From: a virus
Length of the DNA stretch: 23,146 bases
IMG/VR virus record: IMGVR_UViG_3300030118_000563
Coordinates: 1-23,146 of that record
Reading direction: 5' to 3' (one strand)
Positions 119-21,073 of this stretch are shown here, piece by piece. The notes under the pieces are model-generated. The model was not told where the DNA came from and did not search any database. It saw only the letters and a program-made list of their open reading frames with translations. The first letter of the stretch is position 1; each line of letters starts with the position of its first letter. The translations under genes were made by a program, and so were the position numbers.

Positions 119-535
119 TTAGTCTCCTAGCTCTGCATATTCTGTCTTAGCGTCAAAGGAGGGGCAATCCTTGTCAGAAAAATCTCTATGCCCGTATATT
201 ATCGCATCTGGATAGGTATTTTTCAACAAGCCCAGCAAAGTTTCTAGAGAAAGTTTTTGGTCATAATTTCTCGTATCCTTAGCGTTCCCGTCAGCATCAA
301 CGCCACCCACATAACACACTCCTATAGAACTACTATTTCTTCCGCTACAATGCGCTCCAGAGCGTGATTGCGGTCTTCCCACACCTATCGCCCCGTCAAG
401 CTCAACAACAAAGTGATAGCCTATATCTGACCATCCGTTGTCCCTTGTGTGCCATGCTCTTATCTCAGATGTCTTGACATCTCTGCCCTCTGGCGTGGCA
501 GAACAATGCACTATAATTTCAGATATCTCTCTCAT
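119..535 (-). CDS. N-acetylmuramoyl-L-alanine amidase, T7-lysozyme-like endolysin
   Basis: A 138-residue endolysin that cuts the amide bond between muramic acid and L-alanine in peptidoglycan. It is of the T7 lysozyme / Amidase_2 type and close to that length. Key residues can be matched by eye to T7 lysozyme: H10 (in IIVHCSATPEG), Y40 (GWSDIGYHFVV), H116 (YGHRDFS), K122 and C124 (DKDCPSFDA); His, His and Cys bind zinc, with Tyr and Lys at the active site. There is no signal peptide, in line with release through the holin. AGAGGAA precedes the ATG. T7 lysozyme also inhibits its RNA polymerase; no evidence for that here. Confidence 0.92.
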   Translation of the reverse strand: MREISEIIVHCSATPEGRDVKTSEIRAWHTRDNGWSDIGYHFVVELDGAIGVGRPQSRSGAHCSGRNSSSIGVCYVGGVDADGNAKDTRNYDQKLSLETLLGLLKNTYPDAIIYGHRDFSDKDCPSFDAKTEYAELGD

Positions 536-993
536 TTAATTCCTCTTGCTTTGTCTATGGCTCTTGAGCCAAACCAGAAGCTAATTATAGCGGCAAAGAT
601 TGCTTTTGTGTCCTCATCCCAAAGAACCATAAGAGCCTCAGCAACTTCCATCCCAGACTTTAGCGCCTCTCTTAGCAAGGTTATCTCTATAGCAAGGAAC
701 AACCCAAAGAAGCAGTATGTAATAACTGGCCTCACAGACTTCTGTAATCCAGTAATAAATCCAGTTCCCCTGTTTATACTGATATCATGCTGTATCAAAC
801 GCTCATGTTCTTTATCCTGCGCCTGTGCCTCAAAAGCTTTTAGCTCAAAGTCATAACCCTGCTTCCGCAACTCTGCGGCAACCTTCATCTTCTCAAGCTC
901 AAATTTTTGATTGCTTTTGTTTTTGAAATGGTCGGTAACGGCAGGGACTGCGCTACTAGCAAACCCCAACAATGAACCCACTACACTAAGCAT
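532..993 (-). CDS. Holin, three-helix GTA/phage type
   Basis: A 153-residue membrane protein resembling the 'three-helix' holin family of gene transfer agents and phages. A short hydrophobic N-terminus (SVVGSLLGFASSAVPAVT) is followed by a charged helical region (20-75), then VRPVITYCFFGLFLAIEITL (88-107) and, after LMVLWDEDTK, AIFAAIISFWFGSRAIDKAR (131-150). The 'RPV' before the middle span and the 'D...FAAI..FWFG.RA..K' end are family marks. It would make the inner-membrane lesions that let the amidase out. The stop overlaps the amidase start by four bases (ATGA). Membrane topology was judged by eye. Confidence 0.82.
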   Translation of the reverse strand: MLSVVGSLLGFASSAVPAVTDHFKNKSNQKFELEKMKVAAELRKQGYDFELKAFEAQAQDKEHERLIQHDISINRGTGFITGLQKSVRPVITYCFFGLFLAIEITLLREALKSGMEVAEALMVLWDEDTKAIFAAIISFWFGSRAIDKARGIK

Positions 994-1120
994 CCTTCTC
1001 TCTCTTTCTTTTGGTCAACCTTACTTGAAGGTTTTTTCTTCTAATCTTTGCCCATCTTTCGTATTCTCGATATTTGTTCAAACGTCCTTGGTATCTAAAT
1101 ATTATCTTCGGCTCATCCAT
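986..1120 (-). CDS. Very small basic protein between lysis genes
   Basis: A 44-residue reading frame I found in the 108-base gap before the holin. It starts at ATG 1120, 19 bases inside the EF-hand gene, and ends with TAG at 986, eight bases inside the holin gene, so it is joined to both. It reads MDEPKIIFRYQGRLNKYREY, then ERWAKIRRKNLQVRLTKRKR and EKDA; 16 Lys/Arg against 6 acidic residues. It is helical, with no membrane span, so it is not a typical holin, antiholin or spanin. No strong ribosome binding site is seen. Its fit into the gap and overlap pattern argue that it is real; function is unknown. Confidence 0.6.
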   Translation of the reverse strand: MDEPKIIFRYQGRLNKYREYERWAKIRRKNLQVRLTKRKREKDA

Positions 1121-1422
1121 GCCGATACGCCCATATACGCCCCCACGACGCCAGCTTGTGCAATATAAAACAAACCAAGCAAATCAGCCAAAGCGTTGAC
1201 GCGACTGTCAGGAATAATAGGAAGAAATAAAAAAGTGCTAAACACCAGCATAGACCCCATAGCGACCCAAGCCATTGATTGCTGTTGCTTTGCTTTTTCT
1301 TCTCTAAGCTCAAGCTCGACCATCTCTTTTTCACGAGCTATCTCCTCATCTGTTACGACGCCATCTCCGTCGAGGTCGTGCGCCTCAAATCTACTGCCTT
1401 TCTCTAGTTTCTTCTGCGCCAT
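1102..1422 (-). CDS. EF-hand membrane protein of lysis region
   Basis: A 106-residue protein. Residues 16-27 (DLDGDGVVTDEE) form a canonical calcium-binding EF-hand loop: Asp at positions 1, 3 and 5, Gly at 6, Val at 8, Glu at 12. A charged helix (28-48) leads to two membrane spans, about 51-70 (AWVAMGSMLVFSTFLFLPII) and 81-103 (LLGLFYIAQAGVVGAYMGVS). There is no clear ribosome binding site, so translation may couple to the previous stop 11 bases away. It is followed by a small basic gene, holin and amidase, so a holin-related or lysis-timing role is inferred. Similar EF-hand/two-helix proteins recur in marine phages as far as I recall, unassigned. Confidence 0.78.
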   Translation of the reverse strand: MAQKKLEKGSRFEAHDLDGDGVVTDEEIAREKEMVELELREEKAKQQQSMAWVAMGSMLVFSTFLFLPIIPDSRVNALADLLGLFYIAQAGVVGAYMGVSAWMSRR

Positions 1423-11816: not shown

Positions 11817-12491
11817 CTAGTCCTCGTTGTAAAGATTATCAAAAATCCTATTAACATCTAGCGTATAGTCTAAATCACTTTTACTGTAATGTATATGTGC
11901 AGACGGCTTAAAATCTGGTGCGCCCTCTCCTGTCTCAAACCACGCTGGGTGCGTTACTCTAACCCTATTGTTTGGCAAGGCTACAATATTTCCTGTCCAC
12001 TCCCCTGCATCTAACAAGTGCATAACATGGCTTTGCTTGTGTTGTGCGGGGTCATCTGCAATCTCGCTATCGGTATAATCAACAGTAAACATATACTTTG
12101 CTGGGTAAAAGTTACCGCCAACTTTTGCAAGCCAAGGGCAGGGAGTAGCCCTATCTATTGTATATACAGCATGTGTATGAGACGGGCAGTCCCACGGCTG
12201 TGCGTCATGGACGTCCATAGGCTCAGGCCATTCATCAAGAGGTTCGTCTGCCACCAACGCTGTAATAGGCATCCTCGCCCACATAGCCCCGCCATGCACA
12301 GTGTCCTTTTCTTCTCCCTCTGCCTCTATGCCAGTAAATATCATTTGAAAGCTTAGGCATCTGTTGGGCAAAGTGGTAACAGCGACAGCCATAGCGTGGA
12401 GAAACTCTCCATGATAGGCTTCGTGATTATGCGTGTATTCACGCCTCACCCAACACTTGAAGTGAGGTATATTGCTTTGAAGATATGGCAT
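11817..12491 (-). CDS. Histidine- and tryptophan-rich virion-associated protein
   Basis: A 224-residue protein of unknown function. It has many His and aromatic residues in conserved-looking blocks: HFKCWVRREYTHNHEAYHGE, FLHAMAVAVTTLPNRCLSFQ, VHGGAMWARMPITALV, WDCPSHTHAVYTIDRATPCP, WLAKVGGNFYPAKYMFTVDY. The C-terminal part has WTGNIVALPNNRVRVTHPAW and FKPSAHIHYSKSDLDYTL. The density of His could bind metal, but no known site pattern is evident. It sits between the repeat protein and the adaptor, overlapping the first by one base. I believe it is a conserved marine-phage protein, probably structural. An enzyme role cannot be excluded. Confidence 0.6.
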   Translation of the reverse strand: MPYLQSNIPHFKCWVRREYTHNHEAYHGEFLHAMAVAVTTLPNRCLSFQMIFTGIEAEGEEKDTVHGGAMWARMPITALVADEPLDEWPEPMDVHDAQPWDCPSHTHAVYTIDRATPCPWLAKVGGNFYPAKYMFTVDYTDSEIADDPAQHKQSHVMHLLDAGEWTGNIVALPNNRVRVTHPAWFETGEGAPDFKPSAHIHYSKSDLDYTLDVNRIFDNLYNED

Positions 12492-12742
12492 TAAGCTTTA
12501 GTGAGCTTATAACCTTTTGCTTTAGCCGCAGAGCGAATCTGAGCAAGGGTCATTGGCTTGGCAGTTCTTCCACCACGCTTCATACCCTTTGACTTCATCA
12601 TCCCGCCACGTTTCATGCCCTTAGATTTCATCATGCCGCCGCGCTTCATGCCTTTGGATTTCATCATGCCTCCACGACGATACCCCTTAGACTTCATAGC
12701 TCCGCCACGCTTCATACCTTTGGATTTCATTTTACGTTTCAT
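12491..12742 (-). CDS. Protamine-like protein with five 11-residue repeats
   Basis: An 83-residue protein. Residues 5-58 are five consecutive copies of MKSKGMKRGGM (with variants ending GGA, or with YRR in the second), a repeat of net charge about +4 or +5. The C-terminal 20 residues (MTLAQIRSAAKAKGYKLTKA) look like a short helical SAP- or LEM-like end. The 33-base units differ at third codon positions (serine is written TCA, TCT or TCC), so the peptide repeat has been kept while the DNA diverged. GAGG precedes the ATG. Its stop overlaps the next start (TAATG). Condensing or accompanying DNA in the head is a reasonable guess; function is not known. Confidence 0.7.
   Translation of the reverse strand: MKRKMKSKGMKRGGAMKSKGYRRGGMMKSKGMKRGGMMKSKGMKRGGMMKSKGMKRGGRTAKPMTLAQIRSAAKAKGYKLTKA
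12569..12730 (-). repeat. Tandem 33-base coding repeat, five units
   Basis: Five in-frame units of 33 bases (the last one three bases short) encode MKSKGMKRGGM and close variants. Units are similar but not identical, with most changes synonymous. They lie wholly in one reading frame, with no spacers, so this is a coding repeat and not a CRISPR or an origin iteron. Confidence 0.9.
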
Positions 12743-15180: not shown

Positions 15181-15654
15181 CTATGAAAACACAGCCAGAA
15201 CAATAAGAAGAAAGACAACGGATACGCCTGCAATTACAGAAGCAACGAGCATGCCAAATTTTATTTCTTCATTTCTTTTTCTTCTTTTTCTTTCTGCTTC
15301 TATCTTAGCCTGCTTGATAGCCTCCTTTTCCTCGGCAATCCTTTTGTTTCTTTCGGCAATAATGGCTCGCCATGTTCCGTAACCAAACCTATTATCAATT
15401 AATACCGAAATTTCTTGGAGTTGCTCCTGCGCTAATTTGGCGTCAATAACAGAGTGAGCCGCCTCCTTGGACTGACCAATAATTGATTTATCGCCAAACC
15501 GCTTCTTTTGTACTTGCTTCTCCCCTTCAAAAAGACCGTCCAGTGCGCCTGCTATATCCCTTATATCATTTACAGTGTTGATATTGCTCTTAATAAAATC
15601 TACAGACTTCTGGACTAAAGCAATGCCTGCCAAACCTGTTGATATGGGGTCCAT
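15181..15654 (-). CDS. C-terminally membrane-anchored phage protein
   Basis: A 157-residue protein. Residues 1-60 are moderately hydrophobic and helical (MDPISTGLAGIALVQKSVDF, then DIRDIAGALDGLFEGE). GYGTWRAIIAERNKRIAEEK starts a long, highly charged helix (about 95-130, with AERKRRKRNEE). The protein ends in one clear membrane span of about 24 residues (MLVASVIAGVSVVFLLIVLA) with almost no tail beyond it. It is the only membrane protein in the middle of the basic cluster. It could be an ejected internal protein that reaches the host membrane, or a tail-anchored accessory protein. AGGTG precedes the start. Function is unknown. Confidence 0.68.
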   Translation of the reverse strand: MDPISTGLAGIALVQKSVDFIKSNINTVNDIRDIAGALDGLFEGEKQVQKKRFGDKSIIGQSKEAAHSVIDAKLAQEQLQEISVLIDNRFGYGTWRAIIAERNKRIAEEKEAIKQAKIEAERKRRKRNEEIKFGMLVASVIAGVSVVFLLIVLAVFS

Positions 15655-20902: not shown

Positions 20903-21073
20903 CTATCCTCCTATTGTTTGGGTGAGAAGCACGAGTATGATTGTTCCTGCCGCGCCTATAATGACAGCCTCTAATCTTTTAATCCTATTGATTGTTTCAA
21001 GCCAGCGCTCTTCTAATACACCCTCTAGAACTGTGAGCCGCTTGTCCAAATCATTCACCGTTGGTTTCGCCAT
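20903..21073 (-). CDS. Small coiled-coil and membrane protein, XhlA-like
   Basis: I found this 56-residue gene by reading the strand between the portal and the next gene. It starts at ATG 21073, overlapping the portal end by 23 bp, and ends with TAG at 20903. Residues 7-34 (NDLDKRLTVLEGVLEERWLE and on) form a heptad-like helix; residues 35-53 (AVIIGAAGTIILVLLTQTI) are one clear membrane span. This layout matches small XhlA/hemolysin-like phage proteins, which have a short coiled coil followed by one membrane helix. There is no strong ribosome binding site, so translation is probably coupled to the portal. Its sequence ending GGAGGATAG supplies the ribosome binding site for the next gene. Function is unknown; a membrane role in lysis or entry is possible. 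Confidence 0.75.
   Translation of the reverse strand: MAKPTVNDLDKRLTVLEGVLEERWLETINRIKRLEAVIIGAAGTIILVLLTQTIGG

Follow-up and report, generated by a model that had tools for sequence, protein, structure and literature searches.

Holins set the time at which a host is lysed, and the cue that trips them is a long-standing question. Opening of the phage T4 holin requires its short N-terminus on the cytoplasmic side (PMC12162936), which may by analogy be taken as a precedent for N-terminal control. In the phage lysin LysGH15, an EF-hand-like calcium loop of 12 residues within the CHAP domain acts as a switch (PMC4022735). In the open-access literature we found phage calcium sites in lysins such as this one and none in holins, and no EF-hand holin was found described there. 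For phage Melnitz, a curli pore has been proposed by its authors as the pinholin analogue (PMC9004378).

Here we analyze a small protein encoded in a 23,146-base virus record (the whole stretch is referred to as the window), which combines a predicted EF-hand with two membrane helices (referred to as EF-2TM). It belongs to a large, unnamed family of phage proteins whose EF-hand, judged by sequence, is under selection. We infer that it is best read as a class-II-like holin, or a regulator of a holin, that carries a calcium sensor in the cytoplasm.

Anatomy and neighborhood of the EF-2TM protein

The window comes from a tailed phage. Read in the direction of transcription, its genes for the portal, the capsid, an SU10-type adaptor and structural proteins come before the lysis module, which ends with the amidase gene (Table 1). 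The EF-2TM reading frame translates to MAQKKLEKGSRFEAHDLDGDGVVTDEEIAREKEMVELELREEKAKQQQSMAWVAMGSMLVFSTFLFLPIIPDSRVNALADLLGLFYIAQAGVVGAYMGVSAWMSRR. Its hydrophobic segments, residues 52–70 and 81–99, agree with the two long helices of the AlphaFold2 model, which was built from a 55-sequence alignment and consists of a short helix (11–15), the loop and helices 25–65 and 72–105, with a mean pLDDT of 82. The first of the long helices is unbroken from the EF-hand exit through TM1. Helices flank the loop on both sides, the entering side being of low confidence, as is the EF region generally (pLDDT 54–69 in the first 30 residues). A freshwater-branch member was modeled with the same layout at lower confidence. 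The loop has ligands at positions 1, 3 and 5, glycine at 6, a hydrophobic residue at 8 and glutamate at 12. Thus the original prediction of a complete calcium loop (D16, D18, D20, G21, V23 and E27) on a two-helix membrane protein was borne out by the reading frame, hydropathy and AlphaFold2. There is one loop per chain and no paired second EF-hand; pairing could only happen between chains, and calcium binding by the single loop may be weak. Apart from the loop, the family signature is QRxMAW at the start of TM1, where MAW is nearly invariant, together with small residues in TM2. A fold search of BFVD and PDB gave no significant match, as expected for a short hairpin with a single loop; the distant EhCaBP1 EF-hand at E 3.2 is not evidence.

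Table 1. Features of the lysis module in the window.
Feature	Position	Strand	Evidence
N-acetylmuramoyl-L-alanine amidase endolysin	119..535	-	PF01510 Amidase_2, E 5.6e-13; phrog_822 (amidase, lysis), E 7e-58
Holin-like membrane protein, 153 aa, GTA_holin_3TM-like	532..993	-	PF11351, E 0.0013, below cut-off; phrog_6637, E 2e-26
Basic ORF, 44 aa, overlapping the 3' end of the EF-2TM gene	986..1120	-	ORF; similar ORFs, equally offset, in L001, L003, L004, L005 and L019
EF-hand and two-helix membrane protein (EF-2TM), 106 aa	1102..1422	-	ORF, translation, hydropathy, AlphaFold2, conserved family
TM2 helix, residues 72–105; many small residues, positive C-terminus (SRR)	1108..1209	-	AlphaFold2; hydropathy peak 81–99
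Exiting EF helix running into TM1, residues 25–65	1228..1350	-	AlphaFold2 (helix 25–65); hydropathy peak 52–70; MAW motif
EF-hand loop DLDGDGVVTDEE, 12 residues, residues 16–27	1342..1377	-	Invariant ligands in relatives; calmodulin profile match

The gene had been placed next to a holin and an amidase and described as having no ribosome binding site of its own. The amidase is well identified by its Amidase_2 match. The holin is weak: its product scores 19.7 bits against a curated PF11351 cut-off of 24.8, and phrog_6637 is itself without known function. Moreover, it is not an immediate neighbor, because the 44-aa ORF, possibly part of the lysis module, intervenes; both lie between the EF-2TM gene and the amidase. 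The absence of a ribosome binding site is true of the window and not general, since a Shine-Dalgarno-like motif precedes the gene in 24 of 79 close relatives and in 69 of 79 members of the freshwater branch.

Three other small proteins of the window were noted, all on the minus strand. A protein of 157 aa whose only membrane helix is C-terminal (15181–15654), 14 kb from the EF-2TM gene, resembles the phrog_32327-like proteins directly upstream of that gene in the CRP-9 and freshwater branches. Beside the portal gene lies a 56-aa tail-anchored protein (20903–21073), and similarly laid-out small single-helix proteins are found two genes upstream of the freshwater-branch EF-2TM gene (e.g. L152:2969-3133). 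The third, of 83 aa (12491–12742), is very basic and consists of MKSKGMKRGG-type tandem repeats.

Conservation of the calcium loop

The first scan of viral contigs used six peptide seeds, none of them within the loop, and returned 317 relatives, 80 of which were kept. In the 55 distinct proteins of this set (the window protein and 54 relatives), loop positions 1, 3, 5, 6 and 12 read D, D, D, G and E with no exception, while positions 4, 7, 9 and 11 are variable. In further scans, 213 distinct and complete EF-bearing proteins were recovered, and the loop is canonical in every one, with D or N at position 3, V or I (once L) at position 8 and always E at position 12. Since some seeds of the later scans touched the loop, the first set is the unbiased proof of conservation. 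At the fixed positions the codons differ synonymously (GAT/GAC, four Gly codons, GAA/GAG), and therefore selection acts on the protein. Lack of conservation in homologues had been named in advance as grounds for dropping the original prediction; the comparison was run and the loop is strongly conserved.

It is hardly credible that the loop is a D-rich motif that arose by chance and has no function. The window protein alone does fall below the Pfam EF-hand cut-off (15.1 against 25.9 bits). However, its ligand positions are invariant amid free variation, and the profile of the 55 sequences matches the EF-hands of calmodulin and EhCaBP in PDB over the loop region (best E 1.2e-6). Shuffling of residues 1–50 yielded the loop pattern in 18 of 200,000 trials. 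We rejected the chance reading on the conservation of the ligands and the synonymous codon change, and calcium binding by the predicted loop is highly probable.

The loop differs somewhat between habitats. In the freshwater branch (L090-L169) about half of the distinct proteins have N at position 3, and position 4 is often H, while nearly all marine members have D and G at these positions. The difference may reflect an adjustment of calcium affinity to the habitat.

Size and branches of the family

Four scans of IMG/VR gave between 204 and 489 matching stretches each, in sets that may overlap. The complete loop had been called unusual for a phage, which holds for phages in general and fails for the protein itself, common in aquatic phages according to these scans. 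Roseobacter phages CRP-9 and CRP-1 encode proteins 60% identical to that of the window, and members from CRP-207, Limnohabitans phage DC31, Methylophilales phage Melnitz (gp108, L088 3995-4324) and Sinorhizobium phage phiN3 (gp119) are about 30% identical, all with the loop kept. The proteins of the CRP-9 branch start five residues before the loop, so that they possess the loop and the exiting helix and are missing the entering one. Stenotrophomonas phage DLP_6 has a member with a degenerate loop, and the group of Limnohabitans phage DC33 has the hairpin without an EF-hand loop. The EF-bearing and EF-less hairpins are homologous, with a profile comparison probability of 96.9% when the bridging DLP_6 sequence was left out. 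The window protein matches phrog_27150, which contains phiN3 gp119, at E 2.7e-9; this group carries no function label and spans only part of the family. As a query, the phiN3 protein matched itself and one relative only. A scan of a genome collection gave six loci and no firm host, because all six are from metagenome-derived or binned genomes.

Two database records deserve comment. PQ492659.1 (Limnohabitans phage DC33, L089) carries the taxonomy Inoviridae on a 39-kb genome whose spanin/endolysin cassette is of the kind typically seen in tailed phages, and the label is likely wrong. In MZ892987.1, gp73 of Roseobacter phage CRP-207 is annotated as "putative lysozyme"; its close relative (L172:2535-3116) matches no Pfam lysozyme and resembles a membrane protein carrying a helix at its N-terminus.

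Genomic context of the branches

We gathered the neighbors at 349 loci, typed them with Pfam, PHROGs and NCBIfam and counted them with profiles built from them. In the freshwater (DC31-like) branch, 76 of 81 loci have the order EF-2TM, Rz/Rz1 spanin, M15 endolysin, and 15 of 19 loci of the EF-less DC33 branch read hairpin, Rz/Rz1, endolysin; in the DC31 and DC33 groups taken together, Rz1-type lipoprotein frames lie within the spanin region at 82 of 94 loci. In the CRP-9 branch the order is EF-2TM, endolysin (phrog_465), spanin-like lipoprotein at 62 of 82 loci and endolysin, EF-2TM, spanin at 18; this lipoprotein matches a spanin2 model at E 1e-14, yet below the model's cut-off. The endolysins beside the family are of unrelated types (Amidase_2, M15_3, phrog_465 and GH108). 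Another small protein with at least two predicted TM helices lies nearby in 7 of 61 freshwater loci and in 20 of 54 CRP-9 loci, those listed for the latter being the spanin-like lipoprotein.

The order is varied in the window's own branch: portal, EF-2TM, 3TM at 25 loci and EF-2TM, 3TM, endolysin at eight, a 3TM holin-like gene following the EF-2TM gene in about 39 loci of the branch. At 27 loci the EF-2TM gene lies upstream of the large terminase gene, in 12 of them with a weak transglutaminase-like peptidase match between. The CRP-207/T4-like branch has baseplate hub neighbors at 28 loci and an endolysin nearby in none of 67 informative ones. In phiN3, Melnitz and DLP_6, the family gene comes after the baseplate hub catalyst gene, and in DLP_6 the gene after it is annotated as lysozyme and bears a GH108 domain. 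The placement in a lysis module, as originally proposed, is well supported by these data: two EF-bearing branches and the EF-less relative stand in complete endolysin and spanin cassettes, which gives a lysis link in three branches.

Possible functions

Because the EF-less homologous hairpin fills the same slot, the hairpin is the core of the protein and the EF-hand an added module. Both forms occupy the holin position, beside endolysins that are unrelated to one another and spanins of two kinds; the best reading of the hairpin is therefore a holin or its partner. We consider a direct role in lysis likely, with some preference for a holin rather than a regulator. Our main reading, to which we assign a probability of roughly 0.45 as a whole, is a holin-type lysis protein with a calcium-binding EF-hand, whose opening would be made abrupt by calcium. 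The hairpin would be embedded in the inner membrane, its two ends most likely cytoplasmic, and at lysis time hairpins would oligomerise, thereby opening the membrane or collapsing its potential. Calcium is low in the resting cytosol and about 10 mM in seawater, and therefore a first leak would load the EF site, empty until then in the living cytosol. Since the exiting EF helix continues into TM1, binding would act on TM1 directly: the filled loop may rigidify this helix and drive oligomerisation, and the opening would be abrupt, possibly all-or-none. Topology is uncertain, because the charge flanking TM1 is near neutral in the EF-bearing members. The C-terminus is positive; in the EF-less relatives, TM1 is preceded by the strongly positive RWKNRRR, which points to an N-in orientation.

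Several results count against the holin reading, namely the CRP-207/T4-like branch without endolysin, the separate 3TM holin-like gene in the window's branch, the lack of T7 holin homology, the sub-threshold Pfam holin matches and the CRP-9 branch without entering helix. Two alternatives compete with it most strongly: EF-2TM may regulate the 3TM protein, or its calcium site may be purely structural. As an antiholin or trigger, EF-2TM would act on a second membrane protein (the 3TM GTA-holin-like one in the case of the window), with calcium releasing or imposing a block. The 3TM gene follows the EF-2TM gene in many loci of this branch and in the window lies between it and the amidase; moreover, two-holin cassettes are known from other phages (PMC13056207). 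However, nearly all loci of the freshwater, CRP-9 and EF-less branches are without a 3TM homologue, and mostly without another hairpin, and still keep the gene in the cassette, which makes a regulator unlikely. Invariant ligands would be equally expected if the EF-hand were permanently loaded with calcium or magnesium, as a structural or membrane- or partner-binding site that stabilizes and does not sense; were the N-terminus outside, seawater calcium would keep it filled. We hold this to be quite unlikely, given the predicted location on the cytoplasmic side with its low free calcium and the EF-less relative that keeps the hairpin without an EF-hand.

The baseplate context of one branch leaves open a membrane protein of tail or baseplate assembly or of DNA entry, with incidental proximity to the endolysin. 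The hub neighbors and missing endolysins of the CRP-207/T4-like branch agree with such a role, as does the position after the hub catalyst gene in phiN3, Melnitz and DLP_6. It is nevertheless improbable, since the freshwater, CRP-9 and EF-less branches link the gene to a spanin and to endolysins of several unrelated types, and since the gene annotated as lysozyme follows it in DLP_6; besides, holin genes may stand away from the endolysin gene, as that of T4 does.

As to the calcium part of the holin reading, control of lysis by calcium is plausible, going beyond the present evidence, and calcium as a timing or cooperativity signal is proposed only tentatively. The widest form of the idea, a widespread family of calcium-gated holins in marine and freshwater phages, with the EF-hand fused to TM1 and calcium entry triggering or sharpening the lysis clock, is doubtful. 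Some viruses may, as predicted from sequence, time lysis by calcium, and a holin-like family with a conserved built-in calcium site would provide a direct handle on the lysis cue, through mutating one loop and varying calcium. The family also supplies a candidate holin where none has been named, e.g. Melnitz gp108.

Comparison with known systems

Two proteins were considered as relatives of EF-2TM and rejected. HolAP of Acidovorax phage AP1, a proven lysis partner, belongs by its published description to the holin 2_3 superfamily and has one TM (PMC8879335). No sequence homology to the T7 holin gp17.5 was detected, so EF-2TM would work like a class II holin and is not a member. In Pfam its holin matches are sub-threshold only (PF07332, E 0.0026), there is no match to GTA_holin_3TM (PF11351), and NCBIfam gave nothing credible. 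The GTA-holin-like 3TM protein of the window, itself a weak match, shares the lysis module with EF-2TM and is a separate protein without an EF-hand. Calmodulin-type EF-hands have the loop residues and exiting helix in common with EF-2TM, in which, however, a single loop with no paired EF-hand in the chain is fused to a membrane helix. LysGH15, too, is a lysis protein of a phage and has a calcium loop of 12 residues; it is, however, a peptidoglycan-degrading enzyme, while EF-2TM is a membrane hairpin whose EF loop is canonical. Class II holins (T7 gp17.5 and S21 of phage 21) are similarly small, with two membrane helices, a charged C-terminus and the holin slot, and differ in that the hairpin of EF-2TM is preceded by an EF-hand domain of about 45 residues. 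The cassette of class II holins is found in the freshwater, CRP-9 and EF-less branches and not in the CRP-207 branch; the window has the endolysin. In CRP-1 and CRP-9, the order EF-2TM, endolysin, spanin-like gene and terminase recalls that of T7, which is holin, terminase small subunit, Rz/Rz1 and terminase large subunit.
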